Positions 3,498-38,917 of a stretch of 38,917 nucleotides of DNA are shown in pieces. Position numbers and translations under genes: made by a program. This stretch comes from a virus: positions 1 to 38,917 of IMG/VR virus record IMGVR_UViG_3300033148_000558; one strand, given 5' to 3'. Each line of letters opens with the position of its first letter. Positions within the stretch are counted from its first letter, which is position 1. Below the pieces are notes generated by a model. That model was not told the origin of the DNA. It worked only from the letters and a program-made list of their open reading frames with translations, and did not search any database.

Positions 3498-3511
3498 GAG
3501 TATAAATAATG

Positions 3512-3544
3512 GGGGAGTGTCTTTGAAGACACTCTCCTTTTTTT
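3512..3544 (+). terminator. Intrinsic terminator after the capsid gene
   Basis: A stem built around the 16-bp palindrome is extended by flanking G/C pairs (GGGGAGTGTCTT against AAGACACTCTCC, with one G-U pair) and followed by seven T. It lies 15 bases after the capsid stop codon and has the form of a classic rho-independent terminator. Confidence 0.85.
3517..3532. repeat. Dispersed palindrome copy 1 (GTGTCTTTGAAGACAC)
   Basis: First of 11 copies of GTGTCTT-YR-AAGACAC in the window. Here it forms the core of the terminator after the capsid gene. The centre is TG. Confidence 0.95.
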
Positions 3545-3566
3545 AAATCAAATTAAATTATATAAA

Positions 3567-6912: not shown

Positions 6913-9900
6913 ATGGCAAATTTTACAAGAAACTTTACATTAGGTAAAATGAACAAAATGGTTGATGAACGACTCGTTCCAAATGGGGAGTACATTGATG
7001 CATTAAATGTTCGTATGGGTTCAACAGAAGCTGCTGAGATAGGAGTTATTGAAAACTCAAAAGGTAATGAACAACTTACTAATATCTTATACGAGAACAC
7101 ACCTTTATCATCTGATGCAAGATGTATAGGAGCTTTTGAAGATGGAGTAAATGAAACTATATATTGGTTTATACACGACAAAAACTTTCCTAACACTCCA
7201 ACTAAAAAATTAGATTTGATAGTATCATTTGATACTAAAACAGGGATAGTTGTTTACCACGTTATAAGTATTAATGATGGTACTAATGTAAATACTACTT
7301 TAAATTTTGATGAGAAGTATTTAATTACAGGAGTTAACAGAGTAGAGGATTTATTATTCTTTACTGATAACTTAAATGCTCCACGAAGAATTAATGTAAA
7401 AAAGAATTACGCAGACCCTGTTAATAATGTAGATGGTTTTTTAGAAGAAGATATTTTAGTTATTAAAAGACCACCGGTTTCTTCTCCAACAATAAACTTA
7501 GTTCAAACAGGTGGACAAGAAAACTTTTTAGAAGAAAGATTTATATGTTTTGCATATAGATATAAGTATGAAGATGATGAGTATTCAGCTACATCACAAT
7601 TTTCTAACCCTGCTTTTATACCAAATGCATTTGCCTTTACTCAAGCAAGTTACTTGAATGAGGGTATGACTAACTTTTATAATACTGCAGAGATTACTTT
7701 CAACACAGGTGGTCCATTAGTAAAAGGAATTGATTTATTATTCAAAGATGCTAATAGTCCTGTTGTTAAAATAATAGAAAAATTAACCAAAGCTGACAAT
7801 GGTTATACTGACTATCAAGATGTAACTTATCAGTTTAAAAACAGTAAGATATTTACTATTCTTCCTGAAGCTGACATCTTAAGATTATATGATAATGTTC
7901 CTCGATACGCACAAGCTCAAACCATTATGGGTAATAGACTTATGTATGGTAACTATGTGGAAGGTTATGATATGCTTGATAAAGACAATAACCCTGTTAG
8001 GTTAGACTTTACTGTAGCACAAGAAAACACAGGGTTTGAACCTGATGAAGCCGATGGAGATAAGTCTTCTTTTTCATATACCATAGATGGAACTGTAAGC
8101 GTACCATCATCAAAAGCTACTTTTGATATGACAGGTCTTGATTTAGTTGAAGGAGCTTTGATAGGATTTTCATTTACATTTCTACACGATAGTTGGTCAG
8201 GTACTACTCCTATACCAACCTCAAGCACTATAAACGAACCACCTTTAAATTTATCATTTGCATTTCTATTAGTTAAGGATTATGCATCCGTATATGAGTG
8301 GGTTACATCTCCTGAGTTTATATCTTTAATAGGTACAGATTTACCGAGTGGTACAATTCAACCTATGGCTACTGCAGACAATGGAACAACAATGACTGAT
8401 GTGTATAATCAACAGTTCATAGGTAGTCTTACTCTTGATGGTATTCTTTGTACAAAATTTGATAGTGGTATATCAGGAGGTGGTCAGGCAATAATTGCAA
8501 ATGCAAGTCCTGCAAATAGTAATATTGAATTTGTGTTTCCTGCAGTTCAGTATAAAGATACTGCCGGTAGTTCAGGTAGATTAAACACAGAATACTTTAC
8601 CACATCTCAAGCTGAATTATTATATAGTAAGTCAGGTAATGGTTCAAGCTTACATAGTAATAGAGGTTATGAAGTTGGTATGATTTATATGGATGACTTT
8701 AGTAGAGCAACTACTGCTTTAGTAAGTCAGTACAATACAGAACATATAGATTGCTCTGCATCTGCCACAAGAAATCAATTAAAGGTAACTATACCTCCAA
8801 CTCAGATTGCACCTAAATGGGCAACAAGATATAAGTTTGCAATAAAACCTGACAAAGAAACTTACGATACTATTTTTAGTAACATCTTTTTTACTGACCC
8901 TGATACTAATGATACATACTTTTTATTAGAAGGAGAGAACTCTGCAAAGATTACAGATGGTCAAAGATTAATAGTTAAAGCAGATACATCAGGACCAACT
9001 ACCAATTGTGTTTTTTCAACAGTATTAGAAAAACAAGCTTATAATTCCGATGCTTTTCAACCTGTAGATAGTTCAGGTAATGACCTTAAATTTTTAGCAG
9101 GTACCTATATGAAGTTAAAAGCTAATAACTTCTCTGTTGAAAGTTCAGCTAATGCAGTGGTAGATACAGGAACTGCAGAACAGACTGCTAAAAAAAGAGA
9201 CACTTACCCTGAAATTGGATTAAAAGTTTTTTACACAGGAGATGGTTCTACTGCTGACCCTTATACTCCAATTACTATTCCCGGTGGTTCAAGAATTGAG
9301 TTTGATTTTGAAATGAACAGAACAGGAACAAAAGATGGAGATGGAAGATGTGAATTAAGAAATTATAAATTACAAAAAACAGTTACTGCATCTCAAGACT
9401 ACGATAGTTTTTATGAATTTTTTGTCGGAGATAATATGCAGAATGTTATCACTCAAGGAACTCAAACTGTTGGAGCAGGTGGTGGAACTATAGAAAATGA
9501 ATTTAAGACTGCTATATATGGTAGTACAAGTTCAAGTGGTGCACCGGGAAATGGAAGTTTAGGTGTTAACTATTGGCAGTTTGCAACTCCAAGAGTTGTG
9601 GCTGATGGAAGTACCTTACCACTATATTTATACGTTTCAGGAACAAGAGCTTGTGAACAAGCTAAACATAGTAAAAAAAGAAGGTCATCTATAAAAGGTA
9701 GAATAATTGTGTATAGAGCAGAATCTACTTTAATATTTGAAAGCGAACCTCTTGATGCATCTCCTGATGTATGGTATGAAAGTGAAGATTCATTTGGTAT
9801 AGTAAGAGGAGATGGCTTCTGTGAATACACTATAAGTGTGGCAGCATCAGAACCAAACCCAATAGTTATAGACTATCAAGATACAAGTGACTTACCTCAA

Positions 9901-26221: not shown

Positions 26222-26386
26222 ATGAATGAGAGATTCCCTTGCACAGATGAGCACGTTCCAAAGGAAAGTATTGTCGAAAGGATAAATAAAAAGAATAGAG
26301 AGATGTGGGGTCCGATATGTAAGAAGTGTGATTTGTATGACCACTTCTGTAGATGTAAACCAACAGTGTCTTTGAAGACACAATAA
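26222..26386 (+). CDS. 54-residue Cys-rich protein (zinc-knuckle-like)
   Basis: The ATG lies three bases after the stop of the giant gene and runs to TAA at 26384-26386. The product contains CKKCDLYDHFCRC (C-x2-C-x6-C-x-C), which could bind zinc, preceded by FPCTDEH and REMWGP. I do not recognise a family. The last codons (T-V-S-L-K-T-Q) are written by palindrome copy 5. Close spacing to the giant gene and the clean Cys motif support a real gene. Function is unknown. Confidence 0.6.
   Translation: MNERFPCTDEHVPKESIVERINKKNREMWGPICKKCDLYDHFCRCKPTVSLKTQ
26366..26381. repeat. Dispersed palindrome copy 5 (GTGTCTTTGAAGACAC)
   Basis: Covers the last codons of the 54-residue gene and ends 16 bases before the next ATG. 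The centre is TG. Read in frame it encodes V-S-L-K-T. Confidence 0.95.
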
Positions 26387-26396
26387 ATAAATAGTT

Positions 26397-26579
26397 ATGC
26401 CATTTAAAAAAGTAGGTAAAAATAAAAACGTAAGTCCAAGTGGTAAAATGTTTACTGACAAGCAAGTTAAGATGTACTACGCTACAGGTGGGTTCAGTCC
26501 TGAAAAGATAAAGAAGTATCAACTTGACAAGAAAAAGAAAAAGAAGTCAAAGCTTACCAAGAGGAAGAAGAGAAAGTAA
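26397..26579 (+). CDS. 60-residue very basic protein
   Basis: The product starts PFKKVGKNKNVSPSGKMFTD, continues KQVKMYYATGGF and ends in a Lys/Arg run (about 17 basic residues in the last 22). I recall similar short proteins with a PSGK...QVKLYYAT-type core in phages. The basic tail suggests nucleic-acid binding or a virion-internal role. It is the last gene of the rightward block and its final 33 bases overlap the end of the convergent leftward gene. The start follows an A-rich leader ten bases after the preceding stop. Confidence 0.7.
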   Translation: MPFKKVGKNKNVSPSGKMFTDKQVKMYYATGGFSPEKIKKYQLDKKKKKKSKLTKRKKRK

Positions 26580-26972
26580 ATCTATACCTTGACTAATGTT
26601 GAGGTAAGTTACTTCTTTACTAACCTTATCTTTATTCCATTGGGTTGTTTGAGGTAGGTCTCTGTGAGACCAATCGTATTGTTTACCTAATAAATAGAAT
26701 GCCCACACTCCAAGTGGTGTAGAGTTCACATACACCGGCAGCATATCTAAAGCATTACTCCTTTCAATTATTGAGTCATACTTTTTCTTCTCCAACATTA
26801 AATCATTGTAATGTTTTCTTCTGCATTTTAATTCAAGATTAAGTTTATACTTTTTAGAATAGCAATCGAATCTTGCTGACTTTGCAGTTGGTATTAAATC
26901 ATCTATGAAATGTTTCTTAAGGAAATGATACAGTTGTTTTTCAGAATGAAACTGCGTATACTTATAAGTCAT
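26547..26972 (-). CDS. PD-(D/E)XK-like nuclease, possible
   Basis: This 141-residue protein contains SARFDCYSKKYKLNLELKCR (residues about 32-52): Asp followed about 12 residues later by E-L-K is the core pattern of PD-(D/E)XK nucleases, and HYNDLMLEKKKYDSIIE follows as the usual supporting helix. I recall this arrangement in small phage proteins of Bacteroidota. It would act on branched or broken DNA, but substrate specificity cannot be read. It is the last gene of the leftward operon; its start overlaps the upstream gene by 11 bases and its end overlaps the convergent basic-protein gene by 33 bases. Confidence 0.6.
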   Translation of the reverse strand: MTYKYTQFHSEKQLYHFLKKHFIDDLIPTAKSARFDCYSKKYKLNLELKCRRKHYNDLMLEKKKYDSIIERSNALDMLPVYVNSTPLGVWAFYLLGKQYDWSHRDLPQTTQWNKDKVSKEVTYLNISQGIDLLSLLPLGKL

Positions 26973-27158: not shown

Positions 27159-27398
27159 TTACTTCTTATCATCCATACATTGTAAGAACAAAGTTCCTAA
27201 GTCGGAGTTTATTGATTTGATTGCAAGATATATTTTTCTTGAAGCTACTCTGACTTCTTGCTTTTCTTTTTTAGAGGAGTCACAACCTAAGTGTGCATAC
27301 ATATTACAGTCCATATGCAGTAGCTCATCTTCTTTTCTTTTTACGCACCAAGCTTGGTTGGTTAGCACTTGCTCTATATCAGTAGTCGTATACACCAT
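27159..27398 (-). CDS. Hypothetical 79-residue protein
   Basis: No family recognised. The product has four Cys spread along it (WCVKRKEDELLHMDCNMYAH, LGCDSSK, FLQCMDD), without a regular zinc-finger spacing. Its start overlaps the end of the DnaA domain IV-like gene by 20 bases and it lies five bases before the next gene, consistent with the packed leftward operon. Confidence 0.55.
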   Translation of the reverse strand: MVYTTTDIEQVLTNQAWCVKRKEDELLHMDCNMYAHLGCDSSKKEKQEVRVASRKIYLAIKSINSDLGTLFLQCMDDKK

Positions 27399-27921
27399 TG
27401 TAAAAAGTATTAAGTTTTTTTAGGATATCATCTTCACTGCCTACTCGTGTTCTTTCTTCTATTAATGAGAATATATTACGCAGTCTTTTGTTTTTAGTTT
27501 TCTCTTCAGCGAGTTCTGAAGTTAGAAATTGTTTAGCCGAATATAGTTTTTTATTTTGAGTCCTCAAAGAGAATAGTTCTTTTTTTAATTCCGTATCACT
27601 CATCTCGTAGATAGGGTCGTAGTCTTTTCTATACTCTCTTTTTATCTTTTCAAAGTTCTCTTTAAGTTGTTCATCTGATTGTATGTACCATTGAAACTGT
27701 TTGAAATAATGAAGTATAGTTGCGTGGTTTTTGCGTATTGACTTTGCTATTATGCTACAACCGAACCCTTGTTCCTTTAGTATGTTAGCATATATTATTC
27801 TTGCGTTAACGATGTCTTGTCTCCTACTTCTCTCATCTCTTACATTGATGCCTAACATTGCTTCAATTAAAACTCTAAGATGTTGAAACTCCTTCCTTTG
27901 TATTTGATTGTATTTGTTCAT
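27379..27921 (-). CDS. DnaA domain IV-like DNA-binding protein with coiled-coil tail
   Basis: Residues about 15-95 resemble the C-terminal DNA-binding domain of DnaA: a helix with VNARIIYANILKEQGFG, then IIAKSIRKNHATILHYFKQF, which lines up with the DnaA signature around GRDHTTVLHA (NHATILHY here). There is no AAA+ ATPase part. Residues 105-165 form a coiled coil (MSDTELKKELFSLRTQNKKL). The family would bind short duplex boxes. In a phage operon this could be a replication initiator accessory, a regulator, or a decoy for DnaA boxes; the sequence does not decide. It overlaps the upstream gene by 47 bases. Confidence 0.65.
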   Translation of the reverse strand: MNKYNQIQRKEFQHLRVLIEAMLGINVRDERSRRQDIVNARIIYANILKEQGFGCSIIAKSIRKNHATILHYFKQFQWYIQSDEQLKENFEKIKREYRKDYDPIYEMSDTELKKELFSLRTQNKKLYSAKQFLTSELAEEKTKNKRLRNIFSLIEERTRVGSEDDILKKLNTFYNGVYDY

Positions 27922-29953: not shown

Positions 29954-30162
29954 TTTTCAAAGTCTTCTATTGAATTAAAGTAAAATAATAATGTGTCTAC
30001 AAGTTGAAGTTCTACTACTCGTTTGGCAGGATTATGTGCAAAGAAATTATCTTCTTCTTGAAATATCTCTTGCCAATCTTCTCCAAGAACAATAACTCGG
30101 TATGAATTTGTACACGCTATGTGTAATAACTCTTCTTCACTGTAATTGTCTTGCTTGTTCAT
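29911..30162 (-). CDS. Hypothetical 83-residue acidic protein
   Basis: No family recognised. The product includes YRVIVLGEDWQEIFQEEDNF, then NPAKRVVELQLVDTLLFYFN and FEKCIRLRNYLQEKM. It starts with an ATGA overlap on the stop of the primase-helicase gene and overlaps the SNF2 gene by 43 bases. Both signs suggest translational coupling, and it may be a partner of one of these motors. Confidence 0.6.
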   Translation of the reverse strand: MNKQDNYSEEELLHIACTNSYRVIVLGEDWQEIFQEEDNFFAHNPAKRVVELQLVDTLLFYFNSIEDFEKCIRLRNYLQEKMN

Positions 30163-32582
30163 ATACTTAGTTCACTTTGTGTTGGTTGTTTAACTTTAGG
30201 AGAATGCATAATGAACCATCTACCACTTGAGTCTCTTCCCTCTTCAGGTTTAGTTCCTGTTATGAATTGTCCGTATGCAAGTAACCATCTATAGAATCTT
30301 GTTCTACTTATTGTCATCTTAGCTTTCGGTCCATAGTCAGGATACTCAGATATAAACTCAAAGTATAAGTCTTGCATTATCAATCTTGAATCTTTCTCAA
30401 GCTTATCATTTTTATTATGTCCTTCAATTAGTCCACACCATTCAATGAAGTCGTGACAAGTCTGAGCAGATAGTTGTCTAATCTTAAGGTTAACAAACTT
30501 ACTCTTAACTAATCCTGTTTCTAAGAAGTCTTGTAAGCAGTACACCATATAGTTATCGAACAAGCACCACTCTTCCTCATCCCAATCAGCAAAGAAATGT
30601 TTACCAAACTCATCCAATGGAGTAAAGTTTTTATTGTAATGCTGATGTAACTCTATCTCCCACTTTCTACGTTCAAAAGAATTTCCTGTTCCCTTGATTG
30701 CATAGTTAGTTGTGATTGCAATTTTTGGAGACTTACTGAATGGTATCTTGATTGCATCCTTATTCTTTTTCTCTAATGTCAAACCCTCAGTTACTACACT
30801 AAACAACCTTTCAAAGTCAAAATGTTTTTTAACATCATCAAAGCACAGTAGCTGAGTATCTGCAGATACTAATTGATATGGGAATGATTTCTCAAATGCA
30901 AACGCTTTACCATCTATTACTACAAGTTTCTTCATTTGTGATAGAGCATTCATAAATAAACCTTTACCTGTACCACCTTCAGGATTGTCTGAAATGACCT
31001 CATCATTTAAGATGATTGCCGGGCAGTAACTTAGGTTCTTGTATCCGTGCATCATATATCCAATCGTAGACTCCATTGTCTTAACCCTGTCCTGTTCGTT
31101 ACCACAAATGTTTGCTATAAATACTGAGTAGTCACATCTTCTCTCATCACATATTTTAAACTTACGATTTATTATATGGTCTTTCCAAACGTAACCACCT
31201 AAGTCAAGGTAGTCAATAGGTTCAATCATATTCTTAGTTATCTTGACTGCACAATTCTGATAGTACAAGTAAGCTGAATCTTTTGTGTCTTCAATAAAGT
31301 AGATATCAATTGTATTTAATAATGTAAGAAACTCTTCTCTAAAGAATCTAACTTGGTCTGCAAAGTAATTGTATACTGACAAGTCATCTAAGTCTCCTAA
31401 GTAATTAAGTATAAAATCTTTTATTTCTTTTGTCGAAGTATGGTCTATTAAGTTATTAGTTACTTTAACAAACACAAAGTTCTTACCACCTTCAGGACAA
31501 TACTTGTAGAATCCATTGTCTTCTAAAAACTTTTTGAATGAGAAGTGAACAATAGTTACTTTACCTTTCTCTGATTTCTCCCAAAAGGTTTTCTTTGATT
31601 GTTCCTTTTCTATTCTTTGGACAACCATCTCAATCTCCTCAGAGTCTAAACCTGTGTCCGAAAGTTGACTCCTAATTTCTTTTTTTGATACACCTCTCCT
31701 TAACTTATCCTTGACCTGTGTCAACTTCTCTTCATCTTCATAATACTTAGTTCCGAAGTTCGCAGTATTAACGTAAGCACTTTCAATAGTCCTGTTGATT
31801 TCTGATATTGGAAAGTCTTTAGTTGCGTAGTTGTTTAGTATATATCCTGCGAGTGATTTAGCTACACCATAATCATTGAATGCCATTGCAAGTACATATA
31901 CATTTTGATTTCGTTGTCCTTCAACCATTGGAAATTTTTTCTCCCACCACTTAACAAGTATCTCAACTATCTTATTCTCATCTGAGATTGGAATTGTTGG
32001 AGGGTCTCTATGAACATCAACCTCTTTGTACTCTTGTTCAGTAATGGTATCCCAAACTACTGATGTATTATTAATATGAATCAATGGGTCGTAAGACTCA
32101 TAACAAACTCTTGATACATTCTTACATACCTTATCGAAGTATGGAGAATCAAAATACTTTCCTAATGAATGAAAGTAACTCGTGTGATTGTCTGCTCCCT
32201 CACTTGGTATCTTAACAAGAACCTTTAACCCATTACCACTTGGAGATATAAAGCAAGAGTAAACGTAGTTGTCTTTTGTTAACTTCTCTTTATGCTCAAG
32301 TAAAAGTTTTTTCTTTTCGTATCCATCAAAGTCCAAACAGATAAGTCCTGAATGTTCTATTAAAGAAGCATCGCTTCTCTTATTGAATACACCACTAAAA
32401 CAAATTGCCGGGAGTCTTTTCTTTAACTCGTTTCTTTCTGTCTTGTCTTTAGTTTGTCTGATGCTCTTCACTAAATTTTTAGTAGCACCATCTTTAATTC
32501 TTTGGAGCACCAAGTCTACATCCCTGTGGAATGGAGTGTCTGTGTCCTTAATATTTTTGAAGATTGTTACCTTAGATGTCAT
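30159..32582 (-). CDS. VirE_N-type primase / SF3 helicase fusion
   Basis: This 807-residue protein joins two parts. Residues 1-180 look like the VirE N-terminal/BT4734-like domain found in Bacteroidota mobile elements: GLICLDFDGYEKK (Asp 84 and 86) and ISPSGNGLKVLVKIP (113-125), a primase-polymerase-like pattern. Residues 520-660 are a superfamily 3 helicase: Walker A in EGGTGKGLF (about 534), LLCFDDVKK (Walker B, about 577) and AITTN (motif C, about 622), then FERRKWEIEL. It would prime and unwind at the phage origin. It lies downstream of the SSB gene after a terminator and 229 bases of non-coding DNA. Polymerase activity of the N-terminal part is inferred. Confidence 0.85.
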   Translation of the reverse strand: MTSKVTIFKNIKDTDTPFHRDVDLVLQRIKDGATKNLVKSIRQTKDKTERNELKKRLPAICFSGVFNKRSDASLIEHSGLICLDFDGYEKKKLLLEHKEKLTKDNYVYSCFISPSGNGLKVLVKIPSEGADNHTSYFHSLGKYFDSPYFDKVCKNVSRVCYESYDPLIHINNTSVVWDTITEQEYKEVDVHRDPPTIPISDENKIVEILVKWWEKKFPMVEGQRNQNVYVLAMAFNDYGVAKSLAGYILNNYATKDFPISEINRTIESAYVNTANFGTKYYEDEEKLTQVKDKLRRGVSKKEIRSQLSDTGLDSEEIEMVVQRIEKEQSKKTFWEKSEKGKVTIVHFSFKKFLEDNGFYKYCPEGGKNFVFVKVTNNLIDHTSTKEIKDFILNYLGDLDDLSVYNYFADQVRFFREEFLTLLNTIDIYFIEDTKDSAYLYYQNCAVKITKNMIEPIDYLDLGGYVWKDHIINRKFKICDERRCDYSVFIANICGNEQDRVKTMESTIGYMMHGYKNLSYCPAIILNDEVISDNPEGGTGKGLFMNALSQMKKLVVIDGKAFAFEKSFPYQLVSADTQLLCFDDVKKHFDFERLFSVVTEGLTLEKKNKDAIKIPFSKSPKIAITTNYAIKGTGNSFERRKWEIELHQHYNKNFTPLDEFGKHFFADWDEEEWCLFDNYMVYCLQDFLETGLVKSKFVNLKIRQLSAQTCHDFIEWCGLIEGHNKNDKLEKDSRLIMQDLYFEFISEYPDYGPKAKMTISRTRFYRWLLAYGQFITGTKPEEGRDSSGRWFIMHSPKVKQPTQSELSI

Positions 32583-34698: not shown

Positions 34699-35096
34699 TT
34701 GATTTGATTTAATTTATAATTTAATTCACTGTATTTCAAGAGCACTTGCTCTCGTTTTGTTTTTAATATCCCCAATTGCTTTTGACTATTTCTACCTGTC
34801 AATTCCTTTTGGATTTTCCTTTCGATTAAGTCAAGCTTTGTACGATAGTTAGACAAAGATAAGACATAAACTCCATATCTCCAACCTTTTTTTAAGAAAG
34901 TTTCATAATCTTTTTCAGTTATGTTAGAGTAGTAATTACCTCCTATCATTGTGTTTAATATCTGCACTTGCTTTGTCATATTATCTCTAACGATTTTGAT
35001 TCCGTATATCATTCTTGATTCGTAACCTCTACCATCTAAAGATATAGCAACGTGGTCATCTTCTGCTTGTTGATATACTTCTTCAAGACTGTACAT
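34695..35096 (-). CDS. Hypothetical 133-residue protein with C-terminal coiled coil
   Basis: No family recognised. The N-terminal half is beta-rich (DDHVAISLDGRGYESRMIYG, then IKIVRDNMTKQVQILNTMIG); the C-terminal half (residues 82-133) is a basic coiled coil (YRTKLDLIERKIQKELTG). It overlaps the upstream DnaA-like gene by 14 bases and the downstream annealing gene as ATGA, so it belongs to the recombination operon. A leftward promoter-like sequence lies within its coding region at 34854-34884. Confidence 0.6.
   Translation of the reverse strand: MYSLEEVYQQAEDDHVAISLDGRGYESRMIYGIKIVRDNMTKQVQILNTMIGGNYYSNITEKDYETFLKKGWRYGVYVLSLSNYRTKLDLIERKIQKELTGRNSQKQLGILKTKREQVLLKYSELNYKLNQIK
34854..34884 (-). 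promoter_or_regulatory. Leftward promoter TTG–20 bp–TATCTTTG (inside a gene)
   Basis: On the minus strand TTG (34884-34882), 20 bases, then TATCTTTG (34861-34854): an exact Bacteroidota-type match. The 22 bases 34848-34869 differ by one base from 38640-38661, where another promoter lies. It would drive the annealing-exonuclease-SSB genes, starting about 155 bases upstream of the annealing gene. Confidence 0.65.
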
Positions 35097-35385
35097 TCAT
35101 TATAGATTCTATGGTTTCAACATAGTCTGCATCCTGATTGTCAAGTCTCTTCTTAACCTGTGCTATTCCGTGATGAATAGAAGAGTGAGGGATATCGTAT
35201 CCTCTCTCTGCCATATACTCCTGAATGTAAACCAGTCTCATTGGTCTAACTGAACACAAGTAATAAAGAAGATGTCTTGCATCAACGCAGTCTCTTCTTT
35301 TTGTTTTTGTGAATAGCATTTCATCTTCAATGCCATACAACTTACAGACCTCATCTGCATACTTTTTAAATATCTTCGCCTTCAT
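35083..35385 (-). CDS. Second DnaA domain IV-like DNA-binding protein
   Basis: With the ATG at 35385 the product has 100 residues. It is almost entirely a DnaA C-terminal domain: ADEVCKLYGIEDEMLFTKTK, then VDARHLLYYLCSVR, VYIQEYMAERGYD and IPHSSIHHGIAQVKKRL, where PHSSIHHG corresponds to the DHTTVLHA signature of DnaA. No ATPase domain is present. The frame continues 18 codons further upstream, but those lie over the overlapping 56-residue gene, and the ATG at 35385 has the A-rich leader AATCAAATCAAA seen at neighbouring starts. Binding boxes and role (initiator helper or regulator) are not shown. Confidence 0.7.
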   Translation of the reverse strand: MKAKIFKKYADEVCKLYGIEDEMLFTKTKRRDCVDARHLLYYLCSVRPMRLVYIQEYMAERGYDIPHSSIHHGIAQVKKRLDNQDADYVETIESIMNVQS

Positions 35386-35536
35386 TTTGATTTGATTTAG
35401 TAACCCTTTTAACTCCGTAGATTTCTCCCCAAGCTTCAAAGATTTCGTTTAACATTTGTCTCTGTTGTTCGTGGTACTCTTGTTGTTGTACCTCTTGTTC
35501 TCTTATCTCAGTGAACACTTCTTTTGTCTTTCCCAT
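35366..35536 (-). CDS. 56-residue Gln/Glu-rich protein, coupled
   Basis: The ATG overlaps the upstream stop as TAATG, a strong sign of coupled translation. The product starts MGKTKEVFTEIREQEVQQQE and continues through YHEQQRQMLNEIFEAWGEIY to EGEDI, a helical, Gln/Glu-rich protein with no recognised family. It overlaps the DnaA-like start by 20 bases. The alternative is that the DnaA-like protein starts earlier, but the TAATG overlap and the Gln/Glu composition favour this reading. Confidence 0.6.
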   Translation of the reverse strand: MGKTKEVFTEIREQEVQQQEYHEQQRQMLNEIFEAWGEIYGVKRVTKSNQNEGEDI

Positions 35537-37510: not shown

Positions 37511-38584
37511 TTAATAATGATTCTTTAATATTTCTGTCTCAGTAAACCAACCACCACAAGCAGAGCAGTAGTAGTTAGCAAACCCATCGTGTTCTACATC
37601 ATTGTAACATTCAATGCAGTAAGGTGTAGTCTCTGTAGGAAAGTCATTGTCATCCCAACCTATCTCATAGGTGTTATGCGTTTCATTCTCATTAACTACT
37701 TCAACCTCTCTCTCATCAAAGTCAAATAAAGATGCAAAGTTATTCTGCTCATAAGACTTATGCAAGATGGTGTCTGATGTTAGTTGCTTTGGATTGAAAT
37801 ATATCCAAGCTTTGACAAGCTTACCATTTACTTTTACAGGGACTTGCTTTCGTTGGTACCAATTCGGGTGTGATTCTAATTGGTCTATCCTGTCAAGTTG
37901 TTGGTCATTCACTTTGAATACATCCACCACCACATTGTGACCTGTACCTTTCTTGTCTACCATATAAGGTAAACCCTGTACGATTAAAGGATACTTCTCT
38001 TGTGTGTTACCTCTGCCTAAGTAAGTTGCTTTGGTTAAGTAGTTGAAGTAATTGTTAAACCCTTTCTTTAAGGTGCCATATACTGCAATGATATTGTCTT
38101 GCAGTACGTTAGCTTTTGAATACCAAATACCATCTCTATATGTATACAGATTCCTGTTGTATATCTGAAATGATTTAGTCTTTAGATTGATAGTCACAAA
38201 ACGTGAGTCGTGTTTCTCTAATTCTTTCTTCCACTGACTACGCTTCACATCTCCAAGTGAGATTGCTAACTCTTTACTATCGCACATCTCGTGACAACCC
38301 ATACCTTTGATTGTTCCGTTCATCATTAGTAACTCATCTTTGTTAGAGCCACATACAAATGGATGCGTATTGGACAACCCAACCTTACCTACTGTCGCAT
38401 ATCGAAAGTGAGCAATGAATGGTCTGTCTGTTAATAATAGTTTGTACTCTTCTGATTTGTGATACGTTACCTCAAATGTATCAAGCCATACTATACCTAA
38501 TCCGTGAGGATTAATTCTTGCTGATGACTTCGCCACATCTTTTGGCATCCTGTTGTTCTTTTGTTTTATTATGATTACACACAT
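37511..38584 (-). CDS. Class II amidotransferase–gamma-glutamylcyclotransferase–zinc ribbon fusion
   Basis: I place the start at 38584 so that Cys2 becomes the N-terminal nucleophile after Met removal; the product has 357 residues. Residues 1-155 are an Ntn-type class II glutamine amidotransferase: MCVIIIKQKN, HFRYATVGKVGLSNTHPF (59-76) and MMNGTI (88-92). Residues 165-265 are a GGCT/AIG2-like domain: AVYGTLKKGFNNY (167-179), DVFKVND and DQLESHPNWY with a Glu (237) at the catalytic place. Residues 323-343 are a zinc ribbon (CIEC...CSAC). The family chemistry is release of ammonia from glutamine and cyclisation of gamma-glutamyl groups. The real substrate is unknown; nucleotide or DNA modification, or host metabolite diversion, are guesses. 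Confidence 0.8.
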   Translation of the reverse strand: MCVIIIKQKNNRMPKDVAKSSARINPHGLGIVWLDTFEVTYHKSEEYKLLLTDRPFIAHFRYATVGKVGLSNTHPFVCGSNKDELLMMNGTIKGMGCHEMCDSKELAISLGDVKRSQWKKELEKHDSRFVTINLKTKSFQIYNRNLYTYRDGIWYSKANVLQDNIIAVYGTLKKGFNNYFNYLTKATYLGRGNTQEKYPLIVQGLPYMVDKKGTGHNVVVDVFKVNDQQLDRIDQLESHPNWYQRKQVPVKVNGKLVKAWIYFNPKQLTSDTILHKSYEQNNFASLFDFDEREVEVVNENETHNTYEIGWDDNDFPTETTPYCIECYNDVEHDGFANYYCSACGGWFTETEILKNHY

Positions 38585-38600
38585 AATTGATTTGTTTTTT

Positions 38601-38616
38601 GTGTCTTCAAAGACAC
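38601..38616. repeat. Dispersed palindrome copy 11 (GTGTCTTCAAAGACAC)
   Basis: Lies in the leader of the amidotransferase fusion, 17 bases before its ATG and about 30 bases downstream of the promoter -7 box. Confidence 0.95.
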
Positions 38617-38645
38617 TGATTAATAATAGTTGTTGTATTGTTAGA

Positions 38646-38676
38646 CAAATATAAGACATAATTTAGACATATCCAA
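38646..38676 (-). promoter_or_regulatory. Leftward promoter TTG–20 bp–TATATTTG with inverted TTAGACA boxes
   Basis: On the minus strand TTG (38676-38674), 20 bases, TATATTTG (38653-38646): exact consensus and spacing. Around it are TTAGACA at 38641 and 38663 and the inverse TGTCTAA at 38681, a possible operator set. The start would be about 55 bases before the amidotransferase ATG. Confidence 0.7.
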
Positions 38677-38694
38677 ATCCTGTCTAATTTTTTT

Positions 38695-38917
38695 TTACAG
38701 GTGTCCTCCCTGATTTTTTTCTTTCCACTCCCATCTGTATTCTGATTCAGCATCTCGCATATCAAAGTTGGTTTTGTAATGTTTGTTTGCATCTGCATCG
38801 CATCCCATTCCAAATTCATAATCTGCCTGTGCCATCTTCTCATCAATCTGTTCTGCCCAAAGATGTTCGTTCTCTAATAGGTAGTCATCCATCCCTGTGA
38901 ATTTACCATTGTCAAGT
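38695..38917 (-). CDS. Hypothetical protein, frame open to the right edge
   Basis: The frame is open from the window edge, with a possible internal start at 38892 giving 65 residues (starting MDDYLLENEHLWAEQIDEKM). The tail is acidic and Trp/Tyr-rich (DFEM-like GMGCDAD, EYRWEWKEKN). No family recognised. It ends eight bases before the inverted TTAGACA/TGTCTAA boxes. It may be the C-terminus of a longer protein. Confidence 0.5.
   Translation of the reverse strand, partial: LDNGKFTGMDDYLLENEHLWAEQIDEKMAQADYEFGMGCDADANKHYKTNFDMRDAESEYRWEWKEKNQGGHL

Follow-up and report, generated by a model that had tools for sequence, protein, structure and literature searches.

A phage GATase-GGCT-zinc-ribbon fusion and a divergent upstream amidoligase as a probable two-gene gamma-glutamyl cassette of Bacteroidota podoviruses

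We describe a phage gene in which a class II glutamine amidotransferase (GATase), a gamma-glutamyl cyclotransferase (GGCT) and a zinc-ribbon-like tail form one polypeptide. Together with an amidoligase gene found upstream of it in related phages, it probably makes up a compact two-gene cassette for gamma-glutamyl or amide chemistry in podoviruses of Bacteroidota. The stretch of DNA analyzed here, called the window, is the entire virus record IMGVR_UViG_3300033148_000558 (38,917 bases). It is most likely a fragment, because the contigs of many relatives reach approximately 59 to 64 kb and because the window starts within a portal gene. Its carrier is a virus of Bacteroidota-type bacteria, and the phage group consists of podoviruses akin to the Flavobacterium elemo phages, Cellulophaga and Maribacter phages and MW202828.

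Table 1. Features of the fusion gene, its upstream region and the recurrent palindrome in the window
Feature	Position	Strand	Basis
GATase-GGCT-zinc-ribbon fusion, complete gene, 357 aa + stop	37511..38584	(-)	ORF; shared Met-Cys start; AlphaFold2
Class II (Ntn) GATase domain, residues 1-160	38105..38584	(-)	Pfam, VIA, conserved residues
Nucleophile Cys2	38579-38581	(-)	96/96 aligned sequences
GGACT-type gamma-glutamyl cyclotransferase domain, residues 163-285	37730..38098	(-)	PF06094, VIA
Catalytic-position Glu237	37874-37876	(-)	Alignment to human GGACT
Low-confidence, fast-evolving linker, residues 286-317	37634..37729	(-)	pLDDT, identity
Four-Cys zinc-ribbon-like tail, residues 318-357 (C323, C326, C340, C343)	37514..37633	(-)	Conserved Cys
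Bacteroidota-type promoter-like site TTTG-N20-TATATTTG	38646..38677	(-)	Conserved upstream of orthologues
Leader hairpin GTGTCTTTGAAGACAC	38601..38616	(-)	Between promoter-like site and ATG
TGTCTTYRAAGACA copies	3518, 11637, 16952, 20604, 26367, 28732, 32795, 34207, 35807, 37475, 38602

The gene maps to the replication/recombination part of the window and starts with ATG-TGT at 38584. The resulting Met-Cys start, which Ntn chemistry requires, is common to all 96 aligned sequences. A longer in-frame ATG at 38659 (382 aa) was rejected because it falls within the conserved promoter-like stretch and because the relatives, 96 of 96, start with Met-Cys at the position of 38584. The sequence-only reading of this DNA had placed a three-part fusion at 37511-38584, with Cys2 as nucleophile if translation began at 38584; its coordinates were exact, its start was right, and both active domains fold as it had named them (VIA Z 12 and 18). 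The twelve key residues that we tested, several of which it had listed for the GATase and GGCT domains, are kept in 95 to 96 of the 96 sequences, and the four ribbon cysteines in 90. With 96 sequences and invariant residues, a chance match was rejected. That reading had also proposed looking for loss of Cys2 or of the GGCT glutamate in homologues and predicting the structure. Neither residue was lost (C2 in 96/96; E237 in 95/96, the exception being a gap), and in an AlphaFold2 model built on 78 sequences of the fusion's own family (mean pLDDT 87.8) both active domains fold as members of the GATase and GGACT families. Mean pairwise identity was 0.66 in the GATase domain, 0.57 in the GGCT domain, 0.51 in the ribbon and 0.19 in the linker; conserved enzyme domains together with a barely conserved linker would be the pattern expected if two functional enzymes were held by a flexible tether. 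Elsewhere in the replication region, two separate proteins (27379-27921 and 35083-35439) show weak matches to the DnaA C-terminal helix-turn-helix, and an 807-aa BT4734-N/DUF5906 protein (30159-32582) is primase/helicase-like, its best match being a PHROG of unknown function.

The N-terminal domain carries its cysteine directly after the initiator Met in all 96 sequences, as class II GATases do. The Arg/Thr, His, Asn-Gly and Asp set for glutamine binding and the oxyanion is also present, with C2, R61, T64, H74, N89, G90 and D102 found in 96 of 96 aligned sequences. Pfam GATase_4/6 matched weakly over residues 49-95 of the window protein; GATase_4 in that protein alone gave E=2.8e-4 and 20.4 bits, under the curated cut-off of 23 bits. 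Among the relatives, 77 of 78 had a Pfam GATase match at E<=0.01 (best 8.9e-7). In the predicted structure, residues 2-161 adopt the Ntn GATase fold, with VIA Z scores of 12.2 to EgtC and 11.9 to the glutaminase domain of GlmS. These two share with the phage domain the class II Ntn fold and the Cys2-R-H-NG-D set, and the phage domain is shorter. EgtC is the gamma-glutamyl hydrolase of ergothioneine synthesis, which strips off a gamma-glutamyl group, and GlmS yields ammonia. Because EgtC and GlmS tie, the modelled structure cannot choose between ammonia supply and hydrolysis of a gamma-glutamyl amide.

The second domain belongs to the GGACT family by both fold and curated sequence score. Pfam GGACT (PF06094) matched residues 167-278 with E=3.2e-24 and 86.2 bits, against a cut-off of 22.8 bits, and residues 163-283 superimposed on gamma-glutamylamine cyclotransferase (1vkb/3jub) with Z 18 and an rmsd of 2.3-2.4 A over approximately 120 residues. 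The human and mouse enzymes (3jub, 1vkb) share with the phage domain this fold, the YGTL motif and the position of the catalytic Glu; they differ in being stand-alone animal enzymes, with 30-32% identity to the phage domain. The YGTL loop (Y169-L172) is present in 96 of 96 sequences, and E237 falls at the Glu position of human GGACT (3jub) in an alignment of the DDFES/IDQLES stretch. The score to ChaC (Z about 9-10) is far under that to GGACT, which, as judged from the model, points to gamma-glutamylamines rather than glutathione as substrates.

The linker is predicted to be disordered, with AlphaFold2 pLDDT <50 over residues 288-317. The tail that follows contains two CxxC pairs, CIEC and CSAC. 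It was modelled as a block with pLDDT 81-92, structural matches cover none of it, and no significant Pfam match to it was found in the window protein. The ribbon is absent from a second fusion clade and hence is not essential to the chemistry.

In relatives of the window phage, the strand of the fusion also encodes a protein of approximately 310 aa, a median of 1.9 kb upstream. No convincing Pfam match was found for it: none of 78 members scored above the family cut-off of Amidoligase_2 (PF12224), and that family was found in 0 of 22 searched genomes of the ribbon clade. We therefore call the protein a divergent relative and do not file it in PF12224. It contains the motifs GxEIE, ERDSSCGYEA, CGGHI and EFR. 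Its GxExE, Glu, His and E-x-R motifs are invariant in 78 sequences; this conservation suggested an amidoligase, and three tests agree. HHalign aligned the protein with canonical phage amidoligases (94%, E about 1e-7), with the motifs GxExE, D.S..E.V/IT, CGGH and EFR in register. Its AlphaFold2 model (pLDDT 95) shows a glutamine-synthetase (GS) fold, and nearly all of the top PDB matches are glutamine synthetases, gamma-glutamylmethylamide synthetase (GmaS) and YbdK, which share this fold (Z 8-9) at 8-14% identity. In BFVD, the named viral matches are mostly amidoligases. On these model-based comparisons, the upstream gene of the relatives is a divergent GS-fold amidoligase that forms a distinct branch.

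The two genes occur together throughout the loci that can be scored. Of the fusion loci, 64 extend 5 kb or more upstream, and each of these has an amidoligase there, the divergent type in 63 and the canonical PF12224 type in one (phage C75C1). As the window ends before the position of this gene, we infer its presence in the window phage itself from the relatives. The idea that a gamma-glutamyl group is first added and then trimmed, put forward from the sequence of the fusion, thus gained an adding enzyme, albeit as a separate amidoligase; the target is one that we infer. A search for the same domain order and its neighbours, suggested in that reading, showed relatives that have this order with the amidoligase as neighbour, and a second clade that does without the ribbon. 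In distance correlations, the amidoligase tracked the fusion domains no more closely than it tracked the primase, so these values do not separate co-evolution from common ancestry. Cultured elemo and Cellulophaga phages were not among the matches listed for the fusion, and the amidoligase was unmatched in them; at tblastn sensitivity, the pair seems to be absent together there.

The second, distant clade (phage C75C1 and L202-L213) has the same GATase-GGCT fusion with low identity to the window clade, and a canonical amidoligase lies upstream in 10 of the 10 loci with enough DNA. Its member from phage C75C1 (OQ984151; WJE88161.1) is 40% identical to the window protein and, without ribbon, follows an amidoligase of canonical PF12224 type. 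The fusion of MW202828 (UOF82491.1) is 44% identical, and the amidoligase upstream of it is annotated as hypothetical. Both fusion proteins are annotated only as 'gamma-glutamyl cyclotransferase', the GATase being unnamed in either record. MW202828 also contains, at 7964-9854 and 26251-26925, GroES/GroEL-like genes and a FAD-dependent thymidylate synthase.

Pieces of the cassette recur in other combinations. On contigs from Tannerella and from two Paludibacteraceae MAGs, a GATase from this subfamily is unfused and comes immediately after an amidoligase. In two loci (L095 and L105, 8984-9948), the Paludibacteraceae amidoligase is split into two overlapping frames just before the class II GATase, which may reflect a broken gene, an assembly error or a programmed frameshift. 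Scanning the genome contigs with the fusion sequence as single query gave no match, and a profile scan gave 23 loci; for the Gammaproteobacterial GATases among these, HMMs found neither amidoligase nor GGCT in the flanks examined. The stand-alone Tannerella GATase had no match in viral contigs. Arthrobacter phages Salgado and Ottawa have only amidoligase and GATase, Geobacillus GR1 and a Faecalimonas phage only amidoligase and GGCT, and UFV-P2, phiEco32 and Zobellviridae have amidoligase, GATase, GGCT, ATP-grasp and a second ligase. Since cassettes free of GATase or of GGCT exist, not every part is always needed, and the independent recurrence of the pieces argues for a functional link over inherited synteny.

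Phage amidoligase cassettes have been linked to peptidoglycan modification (Iyer et al. 2009, as cited in PMC10580990; PMC5498523) and were proposed to modify the side chains of peptidoglycan and to restrict superinfection (PMC5498523, PMC10580990). In phiEco32, LUZ24-like phages and PSA-HP1, a GS-like amidoligase, a class II GATase and a GGCT are close together near replication genes, and the three components cluster likewise in the relatives of the window phage. The phiEco32/LUZ24-type cassette consists of separate genes and includes an ATP-grasp and a COOH-NH2 ligase, whereas in the window clade GATase and GGCT form one polypeptide with a zinc ribbon, and the amidoligase is of a branch missed by Pfam. 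RimK-type ATP-grasp (PF08443) was found in 0 of 23 genomes, with the control positive in 13 of 14, so we regard the cassette as a reduced variant of the phiEco32/LUZ24 type and not as a full member. COOH-NH2_lig (PF14395) likewise gave 0 of 23, its controls giving no match either. Within the open-access text that a literature search reached, phage GATase-GGCT fusions were not found, the match obtained concerning an archaeal Pyrococcus genomic island. The ingredients and the idea of the cassette were thus known already; what is new is the single-polypeptide GATase-GGCT(-ribbon), its fixed pairing with a Pfam-invisible amidoligase branch and the lack of a RimK-type ATP-grasp.

Upstream of the fusion gene, the window contains a site resembling the Bacteroidota promoter consensus. 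By itself, the single match in the window does not exceed chance (expectation 0.41). Across the family, however, 42 of 96 sequences have TTTG-N17-22-TAnnTTTG ahead of the gene, where shuffles would give 0.35, and 80 of 96 have the downstream half, TAnnTTTG, where shuffles would give 7.4. From this sequence enrichment, the fusion gene very likely has its own promoter. The early promoter claimed for it from the sequence is therefore borne out as a conserved promoter-like site, while its class as 'early' is unproven. Several TGTCTAA/TTAGACA-like half sites lie in the promoter region (38620-38700), as they do in relatives, and may represent an operator.

In 60 of 96 sequences, the 70 nt preceding the gene contain a hairpin with a stem of at least 7 bp (2.4 in shuffles). 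The hairpin often reads GTGTCTTCAAAGACAC and is mostly located 19-23 nt before the ATG, and in orthologues the stem shows compensatory changes (GAGGG/CCCTC, GTCCG/CGGAC) around a TTCAAA-like centre. The palindrome TGTCTTYRAAGACA occurs in eleven exact copies in the window, compared with about 0.015 expected from mononucleotide shuffles, several of them 14-22 nt ahead of start codons. Many genes of the phage group seem to have it in common as an RNA hairpin in their leaders. At 3508-3550, one copy is embedded in GGGGGAGTGTC..GACACTCTCC followed by seven T, which has the shape of an intrinsic terminator.

The GATase and GGACT families both recognize the gamma-glutamyl group, and the two genes can be arranged in a plausible reaction scheme. 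The first gene product, the divergent GS-fold amidoligase, would couple an amine or ammonia to a carboxylate at the expense of ATP; this carboxylate is probably the gamma-carboxyl group of glutamate, or else one on a peptide. In the second, Cys2 of the Ntn domain would attack the gamma-glutamyl group and free ammonia from glutamine for the ligase; alternatively, this domain may act like EgtC and hydrolyze a gamma-glutamyl amide. The GGACT-type domain would release gamma-glutamyl groups from amines as 5-oxoproline via Glu237. Having both domains in one chain would hold supply and removal within a single pathway, and the zinc ribbon probably serves to anchor the protein on a partner or substrate. 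We consider, with moderate confidence, that the target would most likely be a small amine or a host cell-envelope peptide, namely a peptidoglycan precursor. A more specific and tentative proposal starts from the presence, in one polypeptide, of two chemically different gamma-glutamyl-releasing sites, one acting by Ntn hydrolysis and one by cyclization. With the divergent GS-fold ligase, these could possibly run a gamma-glutamyl protection and editing cycle on a host or phage amine, and the reduced gene set might then be the minimal form of the cassette, in which the product would be easiest to find.

Two other explanations appear unlikely. The enzymes might serve auxiliary nitrogen metabolism, recycling glutamine, glutamate and glutathione-type gamma-glutamyl compounds to provide more amino nitrogen with no specific target being modified. 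Planctomycetes phage ZRK32, which has an amidoligase, a GATase, a glutathione synthase and a GGCT, was reported to promote growth on nitrate or ammonium; the effect was ascribed to these genes, although on correlative grounds (PMC10945688). The likeness of the phage domain to GGACT (Z 18), far above that to ChaC, speaks for gamma-glutamylamines over glutathione, and since the host already has a glutamine synthetase, a divergent amidoligase suggests another substrate.

It is similarly improbable that the cassette tags peptides or proteins, in which case the amidoligase would add gamma-glutamyl or amide groups to protein lysines or carboxylates and the fusion would edit them in the course of host takeover, with the ribbon docking on the target. 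Human GGACT, the nearest solved relative and best fold match, acts on gamma-glutamyl-epsilon-lysine, 90 of 96 sequences retain the zinc ribbon, and the gene sits in the replication/recombination region; yet the second clade lacks the ribbon, which argues that it is not essential to the chemistry. Hypermodification of DNA or nucleotides with a gamma-glutamyl or amidated base, which the sequence-only reading had entertained, is highly improbable: class II GATases such as PurF act in nucleotide pathways and the gene lies beside replication genes, but no positive link emerged, a scan of genes on the window's fusion side recognized no base-modification enzyme, ThyX is present in one relative, and similar cassettes turn up in phages whose replication modules differ greatly and are unrelated.

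Our preferred reading thus remains a compact amidoligase-fusion cassette. Cassettes of amidoligase, GATase and GGCT are widespread among phages, those infecting E. coli and Pseudomonas included, and their role in the cited literature is a sequence-based proposal. By Rosetta-stone logic, the GATase-GGCT fusion ties both enzymes to one pathway, and it exposes a hidden amidoligase branch overlooked by standard annotation. With the two-gene version, the product could be sought by mass spectrometry from two expressed proteins.
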